Shown piece by piece: positions 3,288 through 33,394 of a stretch of DNA of 58,687 nt; the stretch's first letter is position 1; each line of letters starts with the position of its first letter. Both the position numbers and the translations under genes were made by a program. This DNA is from a virus. Location: positions 1-58,687 of the IMG/VR virus record IMGVR_UViG_3300021957_000041. One strand, written 5' to 3'. A model generated the notes under the pieces. That model searched no databases and was not told the DNA's origin. It saw nothing but the letters and a program-made list of their open reading frames with translations.

Positions 3288-4440
3288 TTGAAACCGATGC
3301 CAGTTCTGCATCTTCTATTTCAGCATTATCTGTAAACTCAACGTCTTCATCTATAACACTATTTGCTGATTGATATTCCATGATTAGATTATCACATATA
3401 TGTGTGTATAGTTCAGTTCTTAAATCTTCATCTTTCAGCATTTCAGGAAATTCTTTTGCCATAAACTTATAGTCTTTTCCCTTAGAGTCTGTAAATGAAT
3501 AATAAGCACCACCTTGTTTTAAGATTTTGTGAGTTTTTAAAGTTGTTATCCAACTTCCGATGTCATCAATGCCACGATTAAAATAAATTTCAAATGATGC
3601 TTTTCTTTGAGGAGGTCCCATTCTGTTTTTTACAATAGTTGCTTCGCATTTGCCACCGATAACTTCTGTTGTTGCACCTTTTTTAATTTGACCCATGCTT
3701 TTGAGACGAATGCGAACACTTGCGTGAAACGCAATTGCTTTTCCACCACTCGTTGTCCACGGATCACCAAACATAACTCCCATCTTTTGTCGGAGTTGAT
3801 TAGTAAATACCAATGCAATTTTTTGTCTTCCGATTGTTGAAGTTAACTTACGCATTGCTTTACTAATTAAAATTGCTTTGGTGGTTGCGTAACCATCCTT
3901 TGCATAATCTGCCGCCATTTCAATTTTAGTTGATGCAGCTGATACACTATCTGTTACAATAGTTACAAGTTTATCTTTGTTGCTTTTACGTACAGTTGCA
4001 ATGATGTTGTCAATCGTTGCAAAAATATCTTCAACCGTGTCAACATGAACATACAATAACTTTTCAGTATCAACACCAATTGCTTTTAGATACTCAATGG
4101 ATACACTGGTCTCGGTATCAATTAATACCGCAACACCCCCTTTCTTTTGAGTTTCCGCAAGAATATGACCTGATACTAAACTTTTTCCACTTTGTTCAAG
4201 TCCAGTTAGTTCTGTGATTCGTCCTGTTGGAATTCCACCATTAGGACGATTTGAAATAGCAAGATCAAGAAGACTACTACCAGTTGAAATCCAATCAGAT
4301 ATAAGTGACGGATCATCACCTTCACTTAAAAAGAAGGCAACTTTACCTTCGTCTTTATATGCAGTATTTAAACTATCTGCAAGTACACTTGCTAAATCAT
4401 CAGATTTGCTTGCTGTTTTTACTTCTTTTTTCTTTGCCAT
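3277..4440 (-). CDS. uvsX: UvsX / RecA-type recombinase
   Basis: Strand-exchange recombinase forming ATP-dependent filaments on ssDNA for recombination-dependent replication and repair. The 387-aa protein is close in length to T4 UvsX (391 aa). Walker A is GLEQSGKS (residues 80-87), followed by VAVLIDTETSVS, which contains the catalytic-carboxylate region, and VTIVTDSVSAAS as Walker B. The segment LVFTNQLRQKMGVMFGDPWT matches the RecA L1/L2 area. The acidic C-terminal tail (DEDVEFTDNAEIEDAELA) resembles the regulatory tail of RecA proteins. It lies directly downstream of gp32, its usual partner. A hairpin at 4468-4495 separates the two genes. Confidence 0.93.
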   Translation of the reverse strand: MAKKKEVKTASKSDDLASVLADSLNTAYKDEGKVAFFLSEGDDPSLISDWISTGSSLLDLAISNRPNGGIPTGRITELTGLEQSGKSLVSGHILAETQKKGGVAVLIDTETSVSIEYLKAIGVDTEKLLYVHVDTVEDIFATIDNIIATVRKSNKDKLVTIVTDSVSAASTKIEMAADYAKDGYATTKAILISKAMRKLTSTIGRQKIALVFTNQLRQKMGVMFGDPWTTSGGKAIAFHASVRIRLKSMGQIKKGATTEVIGGKCEATIVKNRMGPPQRKASFEIYFNRGIDDIGSWITTLKTHKILKQGGAYYSFTDSKGKDYKFMAKEFPEMLKDEDLRTELYTHICDNLIMEYQSANSVIDEDVEFTDNAEIEDAELASVSNEQ

Positions 4441-4467
4441 ATTTAATAATTTTTAGTTTGTGAACTT

Positions 4468-4495
4468 GTGTGGTGAGGGAACACCCCCACCACAC
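4468..4495 (-). terminator. Stable hairpin between gp32 and uvsX (attenuator or processing site)
   Basis: GTGTGGTG (468-475 of the 4-kb block) pairs with CACCACAC (488-495), and an inner GGG/CCC pairing closes a short AACA loop. The downstream side in the transcript is not U rich, so it may stabilise or process the gp32 3' end, or partly terminate, rather than act as a classical terminator. Confidence 0.5.
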
Positions 4496-4515
4496 TTATA
4501 GTTCTTTTTACTTCT

Positions 4516-5346
4516 TTAAGACTTAAACAACTCTTCAAAAGCAGCCTCTACATCTTCCGTGGAAGTTGCGTTTGGTTTGCTTTGGTCTGTAGTTGCACTA
4601 GCAACGGTTGGTTGCTTTACTTCACTTTCGGTTTTTTCAACCTTGACAGTTTCGGAATCAACCGATTCTGCCGGTGGTGCATCTTCTTCAGACTCACCAC
4701 TTACCCACTTTTCAAGAGCATCCTTCAATTCATCATAACCAAGTTCTTGATAAATCTCTGTGATTTCTGCTTGATTGTTGGCAACACCATCAACGATATT
4801 CTTATTTTCGGATATAGGTGATGTGTTTGGTTTAACACGAATGTTAGTTTTTGGAAATGATCTTCCTGCTTCTTCTGCGGAAAGAAACTCAATGGTGATG
4901 TCTCTTCCTTGTGTAGAATCAGTAATATCTCCATAATCGGGATCAGCAATAACACTCAATAGTTCTTGGTAAACTTCTTTACCGAAACCCCAAAACCTAA
5001 CTCCTTCTGCTTCTTCTCCACGAACAAGAACAGGTACAAATGTACGCATCTTTGGCATTAACGAACGACCCATGCGGTAATCATCTTTGTCACCACTACG
5101 AGTTAACTTTTCAGCAAACTCAACGATTGGGTCAGGACGACCAAACGACTTTGGTGATAAGTATGTTCTATTATTGATTCCATAATGAAAATACAACTCA
5201 ATAAATGGATTATCGGGTTGATGCTTGTATGGTACAATACGAACTTGTTGCTTACCAGGTTGAGGTTTCCATTGATAGTTTTTGCGATTATTTGTCTGAG
5301 ACAAATTATTCAACTTTGCTTTTATTTTATTTAGGTCAATAGCCAT
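4516..5346 (-). CDS. 32: Single-stranded DNA-binding protein, gp32 family
   Basis: Coats ssDNA at the fork and organises UvsX loading. The 276-aa protein has a short basic N-terminus, then KNYQWKPQPGKQQVRIVPYK and ELYFHYGINNRTYLSPKSFG, which match the gp32 OB-fold core. A long acidic/low-complexity C-terminal tail ends EDVEAAFEELFKS, as expected for the partner-binding tail. Length fits T4 gp32 (301 aa). Unlike T4 gp32, the translated sequence contains no cysteine, so the zinc-binding subdomain ligands are missing. Start ATG has AAGGA 7-8 nt upstream. A near-consensus sigma70 promoter precedes it (5390-5418), which fits early expression. Confidence 0.9.
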   Translation of the reverse strand: MAIDLNKIKAKLNNLSQTNNRKNYQWKPQPGKQQVRIVPYKHQPDNPFIELYFHYGINNRTYLSPKSFGRPDPIVEFAEKLTRSGDKDDYRMGRSLMPKMRTFVPVLVRGEEAEGVRFWGFGKEVYQELLSVIADPDYGDITDSTQGRDITIEFLSAEEAGRSFPKTNIRVKPNTSPISENKNIVDGVANNQAEITEIYQELGYDELKDALEKWVSGESEEDAPPAESVDSETVKVEKTESEVKQPTVASATTDQSKPNATSTEDVEAAFEELFKS

Positions 5347-22930: not shown

Positions 22931-25900
22931 TTATTGATCATTTACAGATGCAACTGCTCTTGATACCTTTCTTCCGTCCATATTAACTGCAATACCACCT
23001 TTACGCATAAGTAAAATTAGTTCATCAAGTTTCTTGACGACTTGTGTGTTATTTTCTTTTTTATCTGCTTCTGCGGTTACTCCATTGTTTGTATCTACTA
23101 TTTTTGCAATTTCTTCAACAAAAATATTGTGTCCTTTTACGGATATGGTATCCAACCCACTAAGTTCAATGTTTGTACCAAATGATTCACCCGAATCTGG
23201 TTTTGTTCCCACCAACCCTTCGTCTGGTAAAATATTTTTTGCAAAATCTTCAGTTTTTGCAAACACGGTATTGGTTGTTTGAGATTCAATTTGTTGAATT
23301 TGATCATTGATTGGTTCAACCGTGTCAATTGTAAATTGAGGTTGCTCTGTGGTTGGTAACTGCAACGGTTGCATCAATGGAATTGTTGAAGTAGAATCAA
23401 CTATATCATAACTAGGTAATATTTGTGGGTCAATCACAGGAACTGATGGAATTGTTGGTTCTACATCAACAGTTTGAATTTTGTTTTGAACGAGTCTACC
23501 GTCATCCACAAGAAATTGTTTCCGTGCGGCTATTGCTTCATTAAGAAATTCACTATCTGTTGTTGCTCCTGTTTTTATTGCATGATCAGTTATCTTAATT
23601 CTTTCGGATACCGAACTCGTTAGTTTATCCGATAAGTCTTTTATAGTTACATCATAGTATTCACTAACATCACTTGTACCATCATCGTGTGTAGTAATTT
23701 TTGTACCCGTATCGGTATTCATACCCACAAGTTGTCCTTCGGCATAAAGTTTTCCTTGTATTTTTTTGTTGAGCAAACCGGACATGATTTGATCCATCCA
23801 ACTAGATGCTTGAACTACTTGTTCCACCTGCATAGATGATGTAAAATCATCTTTAATTAGACCTTTCTCACTATGTGATTTCGTTTCAAGATTGTCACGT
23901 GCTGACATGATTCCCAAGTCACCTAAGAAATTTTTTGTATTTGTCTCATTTACACCCATTGTTCTCATATGGGCTTCCATAGAGTGATCTTCGTCCACAT
24001 TGAAGTATTTGTTTTTAGCATAATCCGAGAGTTTATCTTTTATGCTCTCTGGCATATATTTGTTGTACATATTACCCAAAAACTCAAATACAGGCTGTAC
24101 CGTATCCGTCATTTTTTTCTCATCTTTGAGTTTTTTATTTTCAAGAATACTGATTTCAGGTTGTTCATCTGGAACAGGTAAAGTTGGTTGTATTGGAATG
24201 GTAGAGGTTGAATCTACAATATCTGGTGTAGGTATAACTTCTTGAGGTGCACCAAAGAGTTTTGCTTCTTTTTCATTTAACATTTTTATTATCAACTCAT
24301 TGGTCTGATGTGATACATCACCAAGTTCAAGTTTCTTACCAAGTTTTGCTTCCAAATCATCTCTTGTTTTTATATTTAAGTCGGTATAACTTTCACCCAA
24401 TACATCTGCAATTTTGAGTTGGTCTGGTGGTTGTACAACACCCCCTTGACGAGATACTTCATGTAACATTTTTCTAATATCACCAATTTTATGAAACTCA
24501 AATTCATCGTTTGAAAATTTCATACTTTGTGCAGATTGCTCTTGGGATTTCTTTTCTTCTGCTTTCTCAATTTCTATTTCACTCATCATTGTTTGCATAT
24601 AAGCATTTTCTGCTTTGAATTTATTTACATTCAACCCACTACCACCTGGTTTTTTGCCATCGTTTATTAATTGCTTATTTAACTCAATGTAAGATTTCAA
24701 TGTTTCCATATAACCATCAAGTGATTTAGAACCGGTTTTATCCATTGATTCAATTAAATTTGTTTTAAATGTTTCATAATCACCAAGACCAAAATTTGTT
24801 TCTTTTGCTTGTGTTTTTGTTTCAACTGGATTTGAAAATACATCAGCAAGTGATTTAGTTCCGGTTTCGGTTGTTTCTTGAGTCGGTGTATCTGATGGTT
24901 TCTGTGCAAATACGTCTGCTAATGATGGACTTTCTGTCACCATAAATTTAGGTGGAAGTGTTCCTTCGGTTACATTTCCTTCTAAGAATGGATCACTTGG
25001 TGGTAATGCTCGTGGTGGTATTTTTATAGGTGTTTGTACTCCACCTAAATTAATATTTTGCAAACCACCTAATTTATTTACATCAAGTTTATCAACTACA
25101 TCGCACAACATATATAACTCACTTGTAATTGCACTTAATGCTTCCACCGCAGGATCCTGTATTCCAGCAAATGCATTTAAAGCATCAACGACACCTGATG
25201 TGAATGTTTGTAATTTACTTACATTTTCAGTATTGATACTATTTGAAATTTCTGTCAATTGTTTTAATTCACCCACTATACTCACACCACTTACACTTGC
25301 AAGTTTGCCCATACTTTCAACAAACTTTGGAAATGATGAACCAGCATCTTTGAAAAATTCTTTTATTTTATCTGCTTCACCATCGTTTACATAGTCCGCA
25401 AATTCCTCTATTCCATTTCCTAAATCTTTTAGAATGGTATCCATATCCTTTGGAAGTTTTATTTGCGAAAATGCAGTTAAAAATGGAAGCATACTTGCTT
25501 GGATATTTGCAAGGTGTGGTAATGCGGTTAAATCAATAGGAGCAAGTTCATCAAAGAATTGATATATTCCATCTCCTATATTATTTAAAATAGAACTTAA
25601 ATCATCTGTTGGTATTTGTGTTGCAGATAGTGCACTTATGAATGGAAGCATTCCTGCTTGTATATCAACCAAAGCAGGAAGTGCAGTCAAATCAATAGGA
25701 GCAAGTTCATCGAAGAATTGGTATATTCCGTCTCCAGTATTATTTAGTATGCTACTAATATCTTCGGAAATTGCACCCAATGGAAGTGTAGATATAGACG
25801 TAATAAACGGTTGTAGTCCTACCTGTATTTGAGGTAGTAGTTTAACAGTTTGTGACTCAACATCCTCAAGTCCACTAAAGAAATAATCAAGTCCGTCACC

Positions 25901-28900
25901 TACATTTTCAAGAACATCTGCGATGTTACTTGGTATACTATCAAGTCCTACAAATCCTGTTGTCAATGAACCAATCCCATCTCCAACCAACGGTAACTCT
26001 TTTAGTTTAGAAGCATTAATTTCCTTAATAGAATCAAAAAAGTCTTCAAGTGCATCTGCAACACCACCAAGTTTTCTTGCGTCACTTACATTTAGTTTAG
26101 GTAACGAACGAGTCATGCCACCCAATAATCTACTTATACCAACGGCTGCTTTATCCATTATTGAAACAGATGCTGGTTTTAGTTTATCAAATGACTCAAA
26201 TATTTCAGTCAATCCATCAGATGCCATTGATGCTTTGTCTCCAAAATCTTCAGTCACATTACTTAAAAATCCACCCAAGTTTAAATTACTTAATAATTGA
26301 AGTGCTTCTACATTTAAATCAACAGAACTTAGTTTGTCCATAAATCCCATCAATTGATCTATTGGGTCTTGTGGAACATCCGCACCAAAGAATCCTGCGA
26401 TTGAGTTTCCAACTGCACCTACTGCGTTTCCTATTCCAACCGATGCCTGCGCCGCACCAAACGATGCCAATGCTTGACCGAATATAAATAATGCAGAGGC
26501 AGCTGCTTCTAAAGTAGTGGACATACCCGCAAGACGATCAAATGAATTTAACAGAAAGTCTACTTTATCAGCAACCAAAATTATTGATTCAGATTCTTTG
26601 GCAAAGTCTAATATTTTTTGAAGTGGAGATTTATTTAATTCCTCTGTATCTGCACCGAATACACCAGCAACTGCATTTCCCATTGCACCTAGTGCATTTC
26701 CAGCACCTTCCGCAGCCTTTCCTACTCCAGCACCTACTCCAAATCCAGCAAGGGCTGCTCCAACTGTGGTAATACCACCCGCAACTGCAACTAAGTTGAC
26801 TGCATCAATTTCACTTAATCGTGTAATATCATCTACCATTGCAGTAATTGCACCTGATACTGAACCTATCACCGTTGCAATTCCTTCTGCTATACTTGTT
26901 ATTATTCCTGATATAGCACCACCTATTGCAGTAATTGCTCCGACAATAGCATCTCCCATTGCAGTAATAATTCCAGATAAAGATTCAACAACTCCTATTA
27001 TTACACCACCTACTATTTTCGCAAAACTTACAAGTCCATCAATTACCAATTTCAACGCACCTACCATTATAGATGCAAAACCTAAAAATATTTTTCCAAA
27101 TTCTTCCAATGCAGGTGCGGCCAAGTTTAATGCGGCCGCAAGTGGAATCAACGACAAACCAAGTAATGCCAATACTCCAGCACCTATTGCAACAGGTACT
27201 GCGATAATACTCAGTCCAAACGCAGCCGCAGCCAATACACCAAGTGCAACTCCTCCAAACATTACATCTTTCCAAGATACATCACCAAACATTTGAAATG
27301 CAATTGCAGCCGGTACAAGTGCAACTCCAAGTAAAGCAATTGCAGCCGCACCTTTAATCATAGACATACTTCCTTTTTCAAGTGCTTTAGCAGCCAATAC
27401 CAAAGCACCAAGAGCAATAAATCCAGGCCAAGCATTTTTCCAATTTACTTTTCCAAATTCTTGAAATGCCTTTGCAGTTACCCATAACGCACCTGCAAGT
27501 ATTACCAAAGCCGCAGCTGCTTGAATTAATTTTTTGGTATTTAGTTTGTTAAATCTTTCTATTAATCCAGGACCTTGACTTCCTTTTTCTGATTTTGACA
27601 ACTTACTTGATGCATCGGCAGCTTTATCTGATGCCGATGATGCAATATCTTTTGCTTTGTCTGCAACTTTCTCTGCTGTTTTACTAAATGGATTGAAAAA
27701 GTTTACTACGTTTTTTGCCATTCCAGCAAGTCCACCTAAAAATGACTTTAATGGTTTAAATAATAAAAATGCTCCAGCAAGAGTAGAAGCAATAGTAATT
27801 ATAGTTGATTCTGTATCTTTAAATAAATCAGATAATATACTTACTTTGTCATTCATTCCCCCAAGTTCATCTGAAGAATCTGTAAATAAACTATGAATCC
27901 ATTCCACGATTCCGGCGATCACTGTAAATGGTGTAACTAAAACCTTTGCAAGAAACGATATTATGTGAAATGCAGGAACCAACAGTTTCGTCATTGAAAC
28001 AAATGTTGGCATTAAACTTTCAACGACAGGTGCCAATGCCATTTTTAAGTCTAACATTGCTTTGTTTATTCTATCTTGAATTCTTTTTTGATTTTCAAGT
28101 TCTTTATTTTTTTGTATTTCGTCTTTTAATTGTTCAAGTGCAGATTTCTTTGTTTCTTTAATTTCACCTTTCATTAAAGCAAGTCTTTTTGCGGCGTCTT
28201 TGTTTCCTTGATCCTTCAAAATCTGCAAATTTTTCTCCGTTTCTAAACGTTGTGCTTCGTTTTTCTCTAAATTATACAATGTACTCAATTCAACACCCAT
28301 CGCATCTGCTAGCGCATTTTGTTGCCAACGATTCATTTTACGAATTCCACCTTGTTGTTTTAAAATTTTAAGTTGCTCTTTTGCCATATCTTCGGCTTCA
28401 CCCTCCATTGCAAGTTGACGCAAACGATTTAAATTAATATTCCGACCTAGCATTGTGCTTGCAGTCATTTGAGCATTTATGCTACTTTCAAAATCCAAAA
28501 GACGGTCAGCCGCACCTGCCATTTCATCTAATGTTGTTCCCATTTTTCTTGCTTCAACAGCTGCTTTTGCTAAATTTTTTGCCGACCCATTTGAAAACAA
28601 GAGTGCGGATTCACTTGCATTTGCTACATCATCCATAATTTTGGCAAAACTTACTCCATATTTGTTTGCAAGTTTCTGCATATGCATAATATTTTTGGTA
28701 GCATCAGATGCAGTTTTAGCACCCATCTTCATCATCGTATCAATTGCTTTTGCACTTGTTCCAGCTGCAATTCCGAATGCTTTATTTAATAATGCAACTT
28801 CGGTAACGGTATCTTTTTGAATAAAGTTGTGACTTGAAAATACATCACCAAGTTCCATAGCTGCTTCTTTGGCATCTTCAAGTTCTACACCAAATAAAAT

Positions 28901-30076
28901 ATAATCGTTGCGGGTATCTTTTATTATGTCACGGATTCTTAAAGTTGAATGTGCAGATGCTCCTAATGATTTTCTAAATTCCTCACCTGCATTTTGAATT
29001 TTACCCAATTCATTATATGCAGTTTTAAGTAAAGCAACGAATACACCAAAAGCAGCTACAACCAAGAATACAGGATTCACTAAAAGACTAAGCATAGACT
29101 TTCCAATAGTTGCGATACCAGCACCAAACGCACCAACTCCCTCGGTTAATGCTTTGGTTGCATCTCCCGAATTTATTAGTGCATCTCTTAGTTTTTGTTG
29201 TGCAATCTTAGATGCGTCTTCTAAAGGTCCTTTTATCATAGCAGATAACATCCCCCCTACAATTGGCAAAGAAGCAAACGCACCCTCTATGGATTTTCCT
29301 ATTTTATCAATTCCGTTGGTATATTCATCTATTACATCTTGAGCACCTTTAATAAGGTCTTTTTTGCTATCACCCATTTCCGACATAACATCTCTTAAGT
29401 CTTTATTTACTTCTAAATTTTGCTCAGATGATTTTATTAAGTCGGCATTATACTGACCTAGTTTTGTGTAAATTCCAGACATCTGCCCACCACTATCAAC
29501 AATTTCTGTTATTTTCTGTAATTCTACATCTTTTAAGTTGGTAAGTGCTTGTTGTTGACCTATCAAATCCGCAGTTCGTAGGTTCTCTCGTTCTAACGAA
29601 CTCTCCAACTCTGTGACCTTGTTTAACTGAGACGTGTAATTTGAATCATTTAAATTAAGCAACGATAACTTGGTTTGCTCTTGTTGAATTTGTGCTTGTA
29701 ATGATGGAATTGTTTGTTCATTGGATTCTTTGATTAAATCTCCGGCGGTTGCAATTCGTTGAGATAACTCTAATTGTTTATCAGAAATTACATTTCGTAA
29801 TTCAGATGCACTATTTGCAGATTTTAATTTATCGTTTATTAATGCAGTTTCACTTTTAATTTTTTCAAAATATGCACTACTACTTGTAAGTTCTGTGTTT
29901 ATTTCTTTTACTTTATCACTTCCTACTAAATCTATTGCAACCGACCAATTTCCTTCAATTACAGAATTTTTAAATTCTTTTGTAAGATCATTTACTTTTG
30001 TTATTTCAGGCGTAAGATTATCTTTAACCGACTTTTGCAGTTGGTTTGTGAAATCGTTTACGTCTAAAATATCCAT
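22931..30076 (-). CDS. Tail tape measure protein, 2381 aa
   Basis: Sets tail length and is ejected through the tube. Hallmarks are enormous size, a coiled-coil N-terminal third (residues 1-230 and 560-690), Ala/Gly/Ile-rich hydrophobic segments (about 320-350 and 855-1085, with repeated FGKVNWKNAWPG / FGDVSWKDVMFG units), and position directly after the gp26-type assembly gene. Residues about 1390-1545 hold 53-aa repeats built around NTGDGIYQFFDELAPIDLTAL; two copies are almost identical at the DNA level. The C-terminus (NMDGRKVSRAVASVNDQ) is typical of tape measure ends. T4 gp29 is 590 aa, so the tail could be several times longer, though not all residues need span it. There is no lytic enzyme motif that I can see. 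Confidence 0.88.
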   Translation of the reverse strand: MDILDVNDFTNQLQKSVKDNLTPEITKVNDLTKEFKNSVIEGNWSVAIDLVGSDKVKEINTELTSSSAYFEKIKSETALINDKLKSANSASELRNVISDKQLELSQRIATAGDLIKESNEQTIPSLQAQIQQEQTKLSLLNLNDSNYTSQLNKVTELESSLERENLRTADLIGQQQALTNLKDVELQKITEIVDSGGQMSGIYTKLGQYNADLIKSSEQNLEVNKDLRDVMSEMGDSKKDLIKGAQDVIDEYTNGIDKIGKSIEGAFASLPIVGGMLSAMIKGPLEDASKIAQQKLRDALINSGDATKALTEGVGAFGAGIATIGKSMLSLLVNPVFLVVAAFGVFVALLKTAYNELGKIQNAGEEFRKSLGASAHSTLRIRDIIKDTRNDYILFGVELEDAKEAAMELGDVFSSHNFIQKDTVTEVALLNKAFGIAAGTSAKAIDTMMKMGAKTASDATKNIMHMQKLANKYGVSFAKIMDDVANASESALLFSNGSAKNLAKAAVEARKMGTTLDEMAGAADRLLDFESSINAQMTASTMLGRNINLNRLRQLAMEGEAEDMAKEQLKILKQQGGIRKMNRWQQNALADAMGVELSTLYNLEKNEAQRLETEKNLQILKDQGNKDAAKRLALMKGEIKETKKSALEQLKDEIQKNKELENQKRIQDRINKAMLDLKMALAPVVESLMPTFVSMTKLLVPAFHIISFLAKVLVTPFTVIAGIVEWIHSLFTDSSDELGGMNDKVSILSDLFKDTESTIITIASTLAGAFLLFKPLKSFLGGLAGMAKNVVNFFNPFSKTAEKVADKAKDIASSASDKAADASSKLSKSEKGSQGPGLIERFNKLNTKKLIQAAAALVILAGALWVTAKAFQEFGKVNWKNAWPGFIALGALVLAAKALEKGSMSMIKGAAAIALLGVALVPAAIAFQMFGDVSWKDVMFGGVALGVLAAAAFGLSIIAVPVAIGAGVLALLGLSLIPLAAALNLAAPALEEFGKIFLGFASIMVGALKLVIDGLVSFAKIVGGVIIGVVESLSGIITAMGDAIVGAITAIGGAISGIITSIAEGIATVIGSVSGAITAMVDDITRLSEIDAVNLVAVAGGITTVGAALAGFGVGAGVGKAAEGAGNALGAMGNAVAGVFGADTEELNKSPLQKILDFAKESESIILVADKVDFLLNSFDRLAGMSTTLEAAASALFIFGQALASFGAAQASVGIGNAVGAVGNSIAGFFGADVPQDPIDQLMGFMDKLSSVDLNVEALQLLSNLNLGGFLSNVTEDFGDKASMASDGLTEIFESFDKLKPASVSIMDKAAVGISRLLGGMTRSLPKLNVSDARKLGGVADALEDFFDSIKEINASKLKELPLVGDGIGSLTTGFVGLDSIPSNIADVLENVGDGLDYFFSGLEDVESQTVKLLPQIQVGLQPFITSISTLPLGAISEDISSILNNTGDGIYQFFDELAPIDLTALPALVDIQAGMLPFISALSATQIPTDDLSSILNNIGDGIYQFFDELAPIDLTALPHLANIQASMLPFLTAFSQIKLPKDMDTILKDLGNGIEEFADYVNDGEADKIKEFFKDAGSSFPKFVESMGKLASVSGVSIVGELKQLTEISNSINTENVSKLQTFTSGVVDALNAFAGIQDPAVEALSAITSELYMLCDVVDKLDVNKLGGLQNINLGGVQTPIKIPPRALPPSDPFLEGNVTEGTLPPKFMVTESPSLADVFAQKPSDTPTQETTETGTKSLADVFSNPVETKTQAKETNFGLGDYETFKTNLIESMDKTGSKSLDGYMETLKSYIELNKQLINDGKKPGGSGLNVNKFKAENAYMQTMMSEIEIEKAEEKKSQEQSAQSMKFSNDEFEFHKIGDIRKMLHEVSRQGGVVQPPDQLKIADVLGESYTDLNIKTRDDLEAKLGKKLELGDVSHQTNELIIKMLNEKEAKLFGAPQEVIPTPDIVDSTSTIPIQPTLPVPDEQPEISILENKKLKDEKKMTDTVQPVFEFLGNMYNKYMPESIKDKLSDYAKNKYFNVDEDHSMEAHMRTMGVNETNTKNFLGDLGIMSARDNLETKSHSEKGLIKDDFTSSMQVEQVVQASSWMDQIMSGLLNKKIQGKLYAEGQLVGMNTDTGTKITTHDDGTSDVSEYYDVTIKDLSDKLTSSVSERIKITDHAIKTGATTDSEFLNEAIAARKQFLVDDGRLVQNKIQTVDVEPTIPSVPVIDPQILPSYDIVDSTSTIPLMQPLQLPTTEQPQFTIDTVEPINDQIQQIESQTTNTVFAKTEDFAKNILPDEGLVGTKPDSGESFGTNIELSGLDTISVKGHNIFVEEIAKIVDTNNGVTAEADKKENNTQVVKKLDELILLMRKGGIAVNMDGRKVSRAVASVNDQ
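25440..25900 (-). repeat. 53-codon (159-bp) tandem repeats inside the tape measure gene
   Basis: The block encoding SSILNNTGDGIYQFFDELAP recurs with 159-bp spacing (for example near 25547, 25706 and, more diverged, 25865). The two central copies differ by only a few bases, suggesting a recent duplication. Length change by recombination here would alter the tape measure in whole repeat steps. Confidence 0.75.
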
Positions 30077-30086
30077 GAGTTAAATA

Positions 30087-30365
30087 TTAAACGTCAACAA
30101 ATGGTTTTAAGTTTGGGTCTTTATTTATAGCATTTTTTAAATCTTCACGACTTGTATAACCCAAATCTTTTAATTCTTTTTTAAACTTTTTCGTATCTTC
30201 AACATACTTGTCAAATACTTTAGTTAATCTAGGATCTTTAAATGCTTTATTTGCAAGTTTGTTTGCTTTGTTTTTAAAAATTGCAGTTACCAACTTTCCA
30301 AAGAACTCGTTGATTAATTGCTCTTCATTTAGAGGTTGTTTTTTGTTAGTTTTTTTATTTTTCAT
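30087..30365 (-). CDS. Small basic protein upstream of the tape measure gene
   Basis: 92 aa from the ATG at 30365 (MKNKKTNKKQPLNEEQ), chosen because AGGAA lies about 9 nt upstream; an in-frame ATG 11 codons earlier lacks a ribosome site. Lys-rich, with a helix QLINEFFGKLVTAIFKNKANKLANKAF and a C-terminal segment KKELKDLGYTSREDLKNAINKDPNLKPF. It sits between the tail assembly protein and the tape measure, so a tail accessory or tape-measure-binding role is plausible, but no family is recognised. A copy of the promoter box lies at 30400-30410. Confidence 0.7.
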   Translation of the reverse strand: MKNKKTNKKQPLNEEQLINEFFGKLVTAIFKNKANKLANKAFKDPRLTKVFDKYVEDTKKFKKELKDLGYTSREDLKNAINKDPNLKPFVDV

Positions 30366-30399
30366 ATATAAGATTCCTGTGCGTGTACATATATCCACA

Positions 30400-30437: not shown

Positions 30438-31563
30438 CTATCTAAATGAGGATTTTGAACGAGACGAAGAACTTGATTTTGCTTTACTTTGAGCAGATTT
30501 TACTTGCTCTGATTCTTTGGTTTTTACATCCAATAATTTTCTTGAATAAAACCTACGCAGATAAATAGGCATATTATACACAATGCTTTGATTAAAAGCA
30601 CCTTCACTATAATAGCAGAGATTAAAAATCTCTTCGTGGAGTCCTATCCTATACTCCGGTGGAAGGGTAAAAAAAGTCGACCCCTAATGGGATCGTCATC
30701 CTTTCCGTATATCCGGTGTCTTCCGACTCAAAGTTAAATGTCATATCCAAGTCAGGAGTATTTCCCTTGATATGCTCACGAAATGCCAAACTATCACGTG
30801 CAAGCAACTCTTTGTCTACAAAACTTTTGATTCGTGCACGATCATCGTCACCATCCAATGCTTTGATAACATATTTTAAACGAGTGGTAACTTCAGAAGT
30901 TTCATTTTTATTTTTAGAGAACTTCTTCAGTCCTTTCATTTCTGCATCAATTGCTTGTTCATCACGATGTGTTAACAATGACCAATGCACTACTCGTTCA
31001 CTGTGTGGCAATGTATATTCAAAAATGTTTTCACCACGTGTATATTGATTAAAGTCAATTTCACGAGGATCTAATTGTGTGAGGTCAATGGAATCTTCTA
31101 CATCGTCACCCGTGGATGGGTCTTTAAACTTAATTTTGTAATCTTTACCATAAGCAAGAACACGAGCCGCAATAAAAATAGCATTTTTATCACCAACTAA
31201 AATGTCGTCTAACTTTACACCAGGTGTAATAATAAGTTGCTCAAGTAGTTTATCAAGAACGATGCCCTTTTTAATTAAGTTTTGACTTGTAAGAATATCT
31301 TCTTCTTTTGCAGTCATGTACTTAATGTCAATACGACCACTTGCAAGTGGACTTGATTGATCGTAGAACCAACCTTTACTTGGTAAATCTACCACTTCAC
31401 TTGGATACTCAGTTTTTTGAACTGCATCTGATTGTTGAAAAGCATTTTGTTCGGGTGTGCGAACTTGCTTGGTTGATTTAGTTGTTGTATCAGTTGTTGG
31501 TACATCACTTTGCATTGCTTGACGTACTTCCTCTGGGATTTTAATACTATCTTCGTTTTCCAT
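30438..31563 (-). CDS. Predicted frameshifted long form of the gp26-type tail assembly protein (+1 or -2 at 30669-30675)
   Basis: The 0 frame ends at a TAG (30651-30649), but the +1 frame is open from 30683 down to the TAG at 30440-30438. The two frames overlap for only 33 nt, and that overlap contains a run of seven U (GAC UUU UUU UAC). Shifting there gives about 374 aa: 298 from the gp26 frame plus 76 beginning TLPPEYRIGLHEEIFNLCYY. The extension continues SEGAFNQSIVYNMPIYLRRF, coding-like and similar to what I recall of small proteins following gp26 in T4-like phages. An internal ATG at 30572 would omit the well-formed part, so a fusion is more likely. Position immediately before the tape measure matches G/GT-type tail assembly chaperone frameshifts of other phages. 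Frame and U7 are seen; slippage is inferred. Confidence 0.62.
30617..30633 (-). other. Hairpin downstream of the frameshift site
   Basis: AGAGATT / AATCTCT, 7-bp stem with a 3-nt loop, 36 nt downstream of the U7 tract and inside the extension reading frame. It could stimulate frameshifting, but the distance is longer than usual for stimulators. Confidence 0.3.
30649..31563 (-). CDS. 26: Tail assembly / baseplate hub protein, gp26 family (short form)
   Basis: The 304-aa protein has a disordered polar N-terminus (about 50 residues). The family core follows: VVDLPSKGWFYDQSSPLASG, KYMTAKEEDILTSQNLIKKG and VLDKLLEQLIITPGVKLDDIL, as in T4-like gp26 baseplate proteins (Pfam T4 baseplate group). The end, ERMTIPLGVDFFYPSTGV, runs into the predicted frameshift signal. 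T4 gp26 is 208 aa. By position (between tube and tape measure) it likely serves as the tail assembly chaperone that loads the tape measure; that reading is inference from gene order in other phages. Start ATG has AAAAGG about 10 nt upstream. Confidence 0.82.
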   Translation of the reverse strand: MENEDSIKIPEEVRQAMQSDVPTTDTTTKSTKQVRTPEQNAFQQSDAVQKTEYPSEVVDLPSKGWFYDQSSPLASGRIDIKYMTAKEEDILTSQNLIKKGIVLDKLLEQLIITPGVKLDDILVGDKNAIFIAARVLAYGKDYKIKFKDPSTGDDVEDSIDLTQLDPREIDFNQYTRGENIFEYTLPHSERVVHWSLLTHRDEQAIDAEMKGLKKFSKNKNETSEVTTRLKYVIKALDGDDDRARIKSFVDKELLARDSLAFREHIKGNTPDLDMTFNFESEDTGYTERMTIPLGVDFFYPSTGV

Positions 31564-31654: not shown

Positions 31655-31996
31655 TTAAATGTCAGACAATGCAAATTTTAAAATTTTGTCATGGTCTTTG
31701 TAACTAAAGAAATCACTTTTCTTTTTACCTTTCCATGTTTTATTTGCAGTCACACCTAATTTCATGTCGTTGAAAATAATTTTCTTTCCACTTCCTGTTT
31801 TGAATACCATTCGTCCTGCGTTGGTATCAATGTCATAATTTCTTAGAAATTTTCCACCTTTTGCTTGTTTAATCAAGAAACCAGCAAGTTTGGCATATGC
31901 ACTACTCAATCCTTCTAATTGAAGTTCGTTTGCTTTCTCACTTTTAATTTCTTCAAAAAGTGACAATATTTCGTTTCTAAGTTTTTCAGATTTCAT
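31655..31996 (-). CDS. Unknown 113-aa basic tail-region protein
   Basis: Begins MKSEKLRNEILSLFEEIKSE, a short helix resembling the Lys/Leu N-terminal tags on several head-region proteins here. The rest is basic, with KLAGFLIKQAKGGKFLRNYD and a beta-like C-terminal half (GRMVFKTGSGKKIIFNDM). No known motif. The gene is bounded upstream by a strong terminator (32021-32050) and has a promoter box ending only 6 nt before its ATG, with no Shine-Dalgarno sequence, so it is a candidate for leaderless translation. Confidence 0.72.
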   Translation of the reverse strand: MKSEKLRNEILSLFEEIKSEKANELQLEGLSSAYAKLAGFLIKQAKGGKFLRNYDIDTNAGRMVFKTGSGKKIIFNDMKLGVTANKTWKGKKKSDFFSYKDHDKILKFALSDI

Positions 31997-32074: not shown

Positions 32075-32566
32075 TTAGTATTGAAGAATTGCGTAATCAT
32101 ACGCAACAGTCAATTCTACATTCAACGGATCACCTGTTGACCAATCTAATGTTCCGAAGTTAACTGCGGTGCAGAACGCACCTTTAATTGTCCATTCTTC
32201 AACCTTATCACCGACAGGTCCAAGAAGATTAATTGTTAAGTCTTTCTTATAGAAGTCGGCATAACCATTTCTACCGGTTACAGACTCATGGGAAAGACGA
32301 ATCCATTCCATTGCAGCCTGAGAAGCACTAGGTACAACCGGATCATAAAGTGTCATTGTGATGTCCTGCCATTCTGCTTTACCACCACGGAGTTTTCTTT
32401 TGATATTGATGTGATCAATTGTCACAGGATCAATATTGAGGTTAGGACGTGTAACAGACTTGATGATGTATGCTGGTAATCCATCCATATACATGATAAA
32501 TCTGTTTGCGGTTTTCGGTTCAAATGCCGTAAAGAACATTTCGTTTACATCTATTACTTCTGCCAT
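32075..32566 (-). CDS. 19: Tail tube protein, gp19 family
   Basis: Polymerises into the inner tail tube. The protein is 163 aa, the same length as T4 gp19. It begins MAEVIDVNEMFFTAFEPKTA, then NRFIMYMDGLPAYIIKSVTR, followed by the characteristic KAEWQDITMTLYDPVVPSAS and DPLNVELTVAYDYAILQY. Start ATG has a good ribosome site (GGAGAAA about 8 nt upstream), fitting a highly expressed structural gene. A strong terminator follows, giving it a monocistronic end. A one-mismatch promoter box lies upstream at 32604-32615. Confidence 0.93.
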   Translation of the reverse strand: MAEVIDVNEMFFTAFEPKTANRFIMYMDGLPAYIIKSVTRPNLNIDPVTIDHINIKRKLRGGKAEWQDITMTLYDPVVPSASQAAMEWIRLSHESVTGRNGYADFYKKDLTINLLGPVGDKVEEWTIKGAFCTAVNFGTLDWSTGDPLNVELTVAYDYAILQY

Positions 32567-32686: not shown

Positions 32687-33394
32687 TTATTTATTTTTTT
32701 CCTTCGTCAACTTCTTTCCAACAAGTTTTGCGGAACCGTATACAACTGCACCAATAAATTGCAAATGTTGTGGTCCTGGCCATGGAAATGATAATCCAAG
32801 AACTCCAGTTGCAAACAAAGTTAATAATGCCATTCCTTCGGGTCCTGCAAATAATGTAGATAATGTAAAACCACCACCCAATGCCATTATCATATCTCCC
32901 ATATCAAAGTCATAATCTGCATTACCTGTGAATGTCATATTTAACCAAATGTATACTAATATACCAGCAACTGCTAATCCTGCGATTCTTTTTGTTTTAG
33001 GATGCTTTGCTAAAAACGCATCCAATTCTTTTAGTTTTTCTTCAGTCCACTTACCGACCTTGGTACTTGCTATATATTCACCTATTACTTTTATGACTTG
33101 CTTGTATGCTTTGAATCCTGCTTTAACTAACTTAAAAAGATAATCCATGCTGAATTTTATCTTCGCAAAAAATTTAAATACACTTTTATCTTTAAACAAA
33201 CTCAATAAGTCTTTTAGTTTTATAGATAACTTATTTTTTAAATCTTGTACGAATCCCCAAATCTTTTTTAATTTACCGGGTATTGCAATTTCATTTATCA
33301 AATAAGGATTTTCTGTGAGTTTATGTTCGTTCACAAAGTTCACAAATTCTTTGTATTGAATATCAATTACAATGTCTGTTAAATCGTTGTTCAT
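32687..33394 (-). CDS. Unknown membrane-associated protein between sheath and tube genes
   Basis: 235 aa with a polar first 50 residues (including NPYLINEIAIPGKLKK), a long basic amphipathic helical region, and then hydrophobic C-terminal segments: RIAGLAVAGILVYIWLNMTF, MIMALGGGFTLSTLFAG and MALLTLFATGVLGLSFPW. I would predict two to three membrane spans. Not part of the T4 gene set at this position. It could be ejected with the genome to form or line a channel, or act on the host membrane during infection; both are inference. The promoter box ends 5 nt before its ATG with no ribosome site, and terminators flank both sides, so it forms its own transcription unit. Confidence 0.75.
   Translation of the reverse strand: MNNDLTDIVIDIQYKEFVNFVNEHKLTENPYLINEIAIPGKLKKIWGFVQDLKNKLSIKLKDLLSLFKDKSVFKFFAKIKFSMDYLFKLVKAGFKAYKQVIKVIGEYIASTKVGKWTEEKLKELDAFLAKHPKTKRIAGLAVAGILVYIWLNMTFTGNADYDFDMGDMIMALGGGFTLSTLFAGPEGMALLTLFATGVLGLSFPWPGPQHLQFIGAVVYGSAKLVGKKLTKEKNK

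Follow-up and report, generated by a model that had tools for sequence, protein, structure and literature searches.

Layout of the probable tail chaperone locus

The window, a 58,687-nt stretch of viral DNA (IMG/VR record IMGVR_UViG_3300021957_000041), encodes on its minus strand a gp26-type protein of 304 amino acids (30649–31563; ATG at 31563, TAG at 30651–30649). The protein matches the Pfam family T4_baseplate (PF12322; 26.7 bits against a cut-off of 24.5) and the baseplate hub family phrog_150 (E = 1.5e-7). AlphaFold2, with gp26 and its downstream extension modelled as two separate chains, predicted the gp26 structure with a pLDDT of 81, and a Foldseek search with this prediction matched a baseplate hub subunit of Bacillus phage SP-15 (E = 1.9e-18). 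The fold search also placed the HK97 tail assembly chaperone (TAC; 2ob9) and YqbN (3klu) within the top 23 PDB hits, at E-values (1.8–4.7) that are not significant. Sequence searches against solved structures returned no match.

We also identified a tail tube protein of the gp19 family (32075–32566, minus strand; phrog_4542, E = 3.4e-25; PF06841, 33.3 bits) and, farther upstream of the gp26 and tube region, a sheath-sized gene. On the other side of gp26 lies a candidate tape measure protein of 2381 amino acids (22931–30076, minus strand), recognized from its length, its position and the annotation of the counterpart gene at the equivalent position in Flavobacterium phage immuto and SP-15. A small ORF of 103 amino acids from the ORF list (30087–30398, minus strand) separates it from the chaperone locus. 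Relatives share this order of gp26 plus +1 frame (31563–30438), one small ORF and the tape measure candidate (from 30076 on). Family searches of the window returned no match for the 103-amino acid ORF; Microcystis phage Mel-JY01 has a small gene at the equivalent position. This ORF and those at 31655–31996 and 32687–33394 (minus strand) are small to medium reading frames without an assignment that lie among the sheath, tube, chaperone and tape measure genes.

A second frame, +1 relative to gp26, is open on the minus strand from 30683 to 30441 and stops at TAG 30440–30438, overlapping the gp26 frame by 35 nt. An earlier note on this DNA had correctly placed the gp26 stop, the opening of the +1 frame and a seven-U run on this strand; it had also recognized the overlap, which it put at 33 nt. 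The run of seven Ts (30669–30675, minus strand) is read in frame 0 as GAC TTT TTT TAC and forms the slip site, with two TTT codons followed by TAC. The +1-frame extension (30438–30674, minus strand) has 78 amino acids when counted from the Phe-Phe site and 76 from the T of TLPPEYR to its end, the latter being the length given in the earlier note. The first part of the frame contains no ATG, GTG or TTG, again as claimed, and the earliest start candidates, a GTG 70 nt and an ATG 79 nt beyond the gp26 stop, both lie in the middle of the folded domain. Joined to gp26, the extension would give a predicted frameshift product spanning 30438–31563 (minus strand), a prediction drawn from the conserved frames. 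Two nucleotides upstream of the slip site lies a 5′ RNA hairpin, CGAUCCC-AUUA-GGGGUCG (30678–30695, minus strand).

Conservation of the slip site and the extension domain

A single open frame of 80 codons could arise by chance. The +1 frame is not such a chance opening, because it is kept in 65 non-redundant relatives. Searches with tblastn retrieved Flavobacterium phage immuto, Microcystis phage Mel-JY01, two uncultured phages, Bacillus phage SP-15, Listeria phage LIS04 and Streptococcus phage GXN1; a scan of viral contigs yielded 80 further loci and a genome scan with a narrower alignment four loci. The analyzable set comprises 86 loci, including the window, and leaves out L008, a −1 member, and L062, in which reading from the start of the match hit an unrelated stop. 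In a few of the 86, the contig ends inside the extension. Comparison of reading frames across this set revealed the +1 frame in every member: a Phe-Phe site and a +1-frame extension of about 60–110 amino acids occupy the equivalent place in 86 of 86 loci. The comparison supports the programmed frameshift proposed in the earlier note, which would link gp26 to the extension upstream of the tape measure gene as in tail assembly chaperones.

The slip site reads TTTTTTT or is a variant of the TTTCTTT, TTCTTTT or TTTTTTC type, all of them forms on which the Phe-tRNA can slip forward, and the seven-T run is intact in 74 of the 86 loci. Among 68 non-redundant loci, the first and the second codon are each TTT in 64, and the codon that follows is TGG in 50 and TAC in 15. 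These codons are under selection. In 65 of the 68 loci, those outside the SP-15 group, Phe is encoded by TTT at 123 of 126 site codons versus 514 of 652 Phe codons elsewhere in the same genes (Fisher p = 1e-8). Conservation of the extension begins at the slip site and gives, for 65 non-redundant relatives, the consensus FFGLxPxYxxxLHExIFxL..GxGGFT..VYNMPIxLRxFY. Furthermore, third codon positions of the +1 frame accumulate more substitutions than the others, with 23 of 41 when the window is compared with L009 and 28 of 58 when it is compared with L013.

AlphaFold2 predicted the extension as a helical domain (pLDDT 86) with helices at residues 7–22, 29–33 and 37–69. In hhalign comparisons, for which each E-value refers to one single pair, the profile of the +1 extensions matched cyanophage gp51 (E = 1.4e-5, probability 80%) and the cyanophage gp51 profile matched the C-terminus of T4 gp51 (E = 1.1e-7). 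The link between the extension and the T4 gp51 domain thus runs via the cyanophages, since the direct match of the +1 profile to T4 gp51 was weak (E = 0.08). The confident helical prediction and the profile match to cyanophage ‘gp51’ argue that the extension is the C-terminal half of the TAC (TAC-C), or ‘gp51’ domain. Family searches with the window’s own extension returned no match. Other extensions matched DUF6760 (PF20546) weakly in 11 of 65 cases (best E = 1.5e-4), and this family may represent the same domain; weak matches to phrog_634, ‘baseplate hub assembly catalyst’, were found in 5 of 65 (best E = 0.021). From these comparisons, we consider it quite probable that gp26 is TAC-N, that gp26 plus extension is TAC-NC, and that the locus is a TAC of the lambda G/GT type within the T4 gp26/gp51 family.

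The predicted fusion has been missed in public annotations, which name fragments of the extension as separate genes. For example, the extension is annotated as one or more separate hypothetical genes in immuto (L002, 3848–3958), SP-15 (L005, 3794–3913), Agrobacterium phage Atu_ph07 (L095, 2891–3013) and Mel-JY01 (L003, 3749–3985), the annotations covering either fragments of the extension or its full length. The extension region of LIS04 (L007) has no annotated gene.

The 5′ hairpin and the likely mechanism of the shift

In the +1 group, the 5′ hairpin is selected beyond protein coding. The window’s hairpin (−11.3 kcal/mol; z = −3.27 against dinucleotide shuffles) is more stable than all 300 synonymous recodings of its sequence. 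Across 65 loci, the 24 nt upstream of the site had a mean z of −1.5 against synonymous recodings and reached p ≤ 0.05 in 48%, compared with 5.8% of control windows (n = 694) in the same test. Codon choice upstream of the site is also biased in the +1 group: Gly at the third codon upstream of the site is encoded by GGG in 23 of 36 cases versus 43 of 821 elsewhere, and Thr upstream of the site by ACC in 15 of 19 versus 112 of 1151. Both codons are base-paired in stems, which occur in two registers. The hairpin is not universal, as about half of the +1 loci have no significant one. A fixed consensus stem showed no excess covariation in the window’s register and a modest excess in the other, and a single stem for all +1 loci was rejected. 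We also rejected GGG as a Shine-Dalgarno-like stimulator in the +1 group, because relatives carry ACC and the hairpin explains both codons, and kept that reading for the cyanophages. A 3′ structure signal in the +1 group (z = −1.0) is weaker than that of the cyanophages (z = −1.6), and an Rfam search gave no match. Structure in the mRNA 5′ of a shift site has been named as a possible +1 stimulator (Atkins et al., 2016; PMC5009743).

We hold with fair confidence that a ribosomal +1 shift makes the gp26-extension fusion. Most ribosomes would terminate after gp26 and release TAC-N. In a minority, the Phe-tRNA on UUU within UUU UUU U would move one base forward onto UUU or UUC, and the shifted ribosomes would then read the +1 frame and join gp26 to the helical TAC-C through the junction D-F-F-T-L-P-P-E-Y-R. 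The hairpin at 30695–30678, forming behind the ribosome, probably drives the shift forward. By analogy with lambda, from which both the efficiency and the assembly roles are borrowed, the short form would coat the tape measure protein, with tail tube subunits recruited by the long form. Lambda G/GT resembles the window’s locus in having short and long forms, made from one frame and a shift, directly before the tape measure gene; it differs in its −1 direction and slippery site, with no sequence similarity shown. The ribosomal reading is built here on sequence comparison. The direction is taken as +1 because, when a single tRNA re-pairs on the Phe-Phe codons, a +1 move gives cognate pairing in 86 of 86 loci and a −2 move is disallowed in ten. 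A standard −1 shift on an X_XXY_YYZ heptamer is absent in this group, whose extension lies in the +1 frame, and present in the cyanophage and jumbo phage relatives.

The same one-base loss could occur during transcription, a reading we judge unlikely: the nascent hairpin and U7 would make the RNA polymerase omit one U in some transcripts, and normal translation of these would yield the fusion. A terminator scan picks out precisely the hairpin plus T7 (30669–30695) as intrinsic-terminator-like, and the intact T7 in most loci is stricter than tRNA slippage alone requires. There is also a precedent in a Roseiflexus insertion sequence, where a hairpin lies immediately 5′ of U5C5 and transcripts lack one base (PMC5009743). 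That element is like the window in that a hairpin immediately precedes a U-rich slip run and the net outcome is one base lost. However, the window’s run doubles as a perfect slip site for the Phe-tRNA, and some hairpin-bearing relatives have it interrupted. The variants TTTCTTT, TTCTTTT and TTTCTAT interrupt the T run and preserve Phe-tRNA slippage, and strong hairpins accompany such broken runs in L004 (TTTCTAT, −11.2 kcal/mol) and in L028, L037 and L048 (TTTCTTT, −10.8 kcal/mol), where realignment by the polymerase would require mismatches. Furthermore, many T7-bearing +1 loci have no hairpin, and the heptamer of the related −1 clades, U_UUU_UUC, is a ribosomal one. If the polymerase were the agent, transcriptional slippage would determine the proportion of the two chaperone forms in phages whose sisters use a ribosomal −1 shift at equivalent codons.

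The terminator-like match, its position within the operon and its location upstream of the tape measure gene would also suit a transcription attenuator that mainly reduces tape measure expression and has nothing to do with frameshifting. This is improbable, as it leaves the conserved +1 frame, the T-run variants and the hairpins without a U run unexplained, and an attenuator role could coexist with the frameshift. Lying inside the gene, the hairpin and T7 (30669–30695, minus strand) could at the same time dampen transcription that continues into the tape measure gene.

Far less probable still is that the extension is a separate gene starting at ATG 30572 or GTG 30581. The window does have an ATG in the extension frame at 30572, which the earlier note had offered as a standalone start, and in the cyanophage relatives an ATG follows the gp26 stop at a distance of 5 nt. 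In 24 of the 86 loci, however, there is no ATG, GTG or TTG between the opening of the +1 frame and 72 nt beyond the gp26 stop, and one of these is L009, a close relative with about 80% identity to the window in gp26. The ATG at 30572 encodes the Met of the structural VYNMP motif; in L009 and similar close relatives, that position holds Leu and offers no usable start codon. Moreover, conservation does not start at 30572, a start there would remove the predicted helix 7–22, and inspection by eye recognized no ribosome-binding sequence upstream of it. The standalone start is therefore rejected for the family. Least credible is a phage Mu-like −2 slippage on the T run, which the earlier note had left open beside +1: it is compatible with the window’s T7 taken alone, but cognate re-pairing is possible in only 76 of 86 loci (the ten exceptions are of the TTTCTTT, TTCTTTT, TTCTTTC and TTTCTAT types) and +1 is possible in all.

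Related −1 sites and the gp26/gp51 pair of T4

In distant gp26 relatives, a domain of like kind follows T_TTT_TTC or T_TTT_TTT in the −1 frame. These −1 members include Atu_ph07, Pseudomonas phage PA5oct, Escherichia phage PBECO4, Xanthomonas phage XacN1, Stenotrophomonas phage RAS14 and an uncultured 595-kb phage. In cyanophage-type loci, T_TTT_TTC stands immediately before the gp26 stop in 80 of 80. Non-redundant cyanophage loci use TTC for the second Phe in 31 of 31 cases versus 30% elsewhere, and the codon GAG, part of a GGAGG motif about 10 nt upstream, is used in 29 of 31 versus 25% elsewhere (p = 7e-15). The 5′ hairpin is absent (z = +0.2) and a 3′ structure is present (mean z = −1.6). 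In an annotated cyanophage, the out-of-frame domain is named ‘baseplate hub assembly catalyst’ and matches phrog_634. The cyanophage gp26-gp51 locus (Kyanoviridae type) is like the window in having a small out-of-frame domain after gp26 and the same Phe-Phe codons, and unlike it in the −1 direction, the GGAGG-like motif, the 3′ structure, the ATG after the stop and the lack of a 5′ hairpin. The elements follow one another in L104–L183 as a GGAGG-like sequence, about 10 nt, T_TTT_TTC, the stop and, 5 nt later, an ATG; cyanophage gp51 could be made both by a −1 shift and from its own start. Cyanophage gp51 has been reported to have no counterpart of the first ~200 residues of T4 gp51 (PMC3037559). 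By our sequence comparison, the missing part is gp26.

T4 has two genes where the window’s group has one gene and a +1 shift. T4 gp26 (TAC-N) and gp51 (TAC-NC) share the gp26 family PF12322 with the window, and the C-terminal domain is shared by profile via the cyanophages. Residues 1–201 of T4 gp51 match PF12322 (E = 3.9e-52). In the tree, the gp26 and gp51 proteins of Straboviridae form one group (99/95), within which gp51 is a single branch (99/98). With its gp26-like residues 1–201, this tree placement and the C-terminal domain, T4 gp51 has the appearance of a gp26 duplicate to which the domain is joined. A precedent for duplication replacing a frameshift, to be compared with T4 gp26/gp51, is the two-gene tail chaperone of Bacillus phage 0305phi8-36, made with no frameshift (PMC2147016). 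The T4 genes 26 and 51 (L089, 5803–7229) lie head to head on opposite strands with starts 50 bp apart, an order that fits an inverted duplication and is shared by 44RR, QL01 and the RB49-like phage G5211. The shift-direction label changes a few times within the family in the tree. As judged from the sequences, the predicted direction is variable within the family and the fusion is kept, in every case at the same Phe-Phe codons.

Tail chaperones made by frameshifting are widespread. Vladimirov and co-workers reportedly recognized, in 2022, genes 26 and 51 as the TAC genes of T4 and found frameshifting retained in several T4-like groups. Their paper (Vladimirov, Gautam and Davidson, 2022; Virology 566:9–15) is cited for poly-T slippery sites in T4-like TAC-N genes (PMC12846349), and its title, as given there, announces TAC genes of T4-like phages together with a mechanism other than frameshifting. 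As far as that title and citation go, TAC genes in T4-like phages, with two separate genes in T4, are already published. A 2016 review lists T4 as the exception among frameshifted tail chaperones and calls the shift in the tail chaperone of halovirus HSTV-2 ‘very likely +1’ (PMC5009743). The kind is known, namely a TAC with a programmed shift; the +1 direction and the 5′ hairpin look like the less familiar part. Three things were not foreseen by the earlier note: the hairpin, the fact that other T4-like phages have a −1 form of the site, and the identity of the extension as cyanophage ‘gp51’.

One chaperone family would thus have three production modes: a +1 shift, a −1 shift and, in T4, two genes. 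The 86 loci are a large natural series for the question of what determines shift direction. The correlates are a 5′ hairpin and UUU_U with +1, and a GGAGG-like motif about 10 nt upstream and U_UUU_UUC with −1.

We also identified the +1 arrangement in two contigs from Firmicutes metagenome-assembled genomes (MAGs; L191, 4001–4955, and L192, 1251–2193), with the sites TTC TTT CGT and TTT TTT CGT, which resemble those of SP-15 and GXN1. A contig from a deltaproteobacterial MAG (L194, ~4001–4890) has phage-tail-like genes, among them a gp26-like gene that is overlapped by a −1 frame and followed by a long tape-measure-like ORF. To judge from this contig, the chaperone pair may also occur in contractile injection systems.
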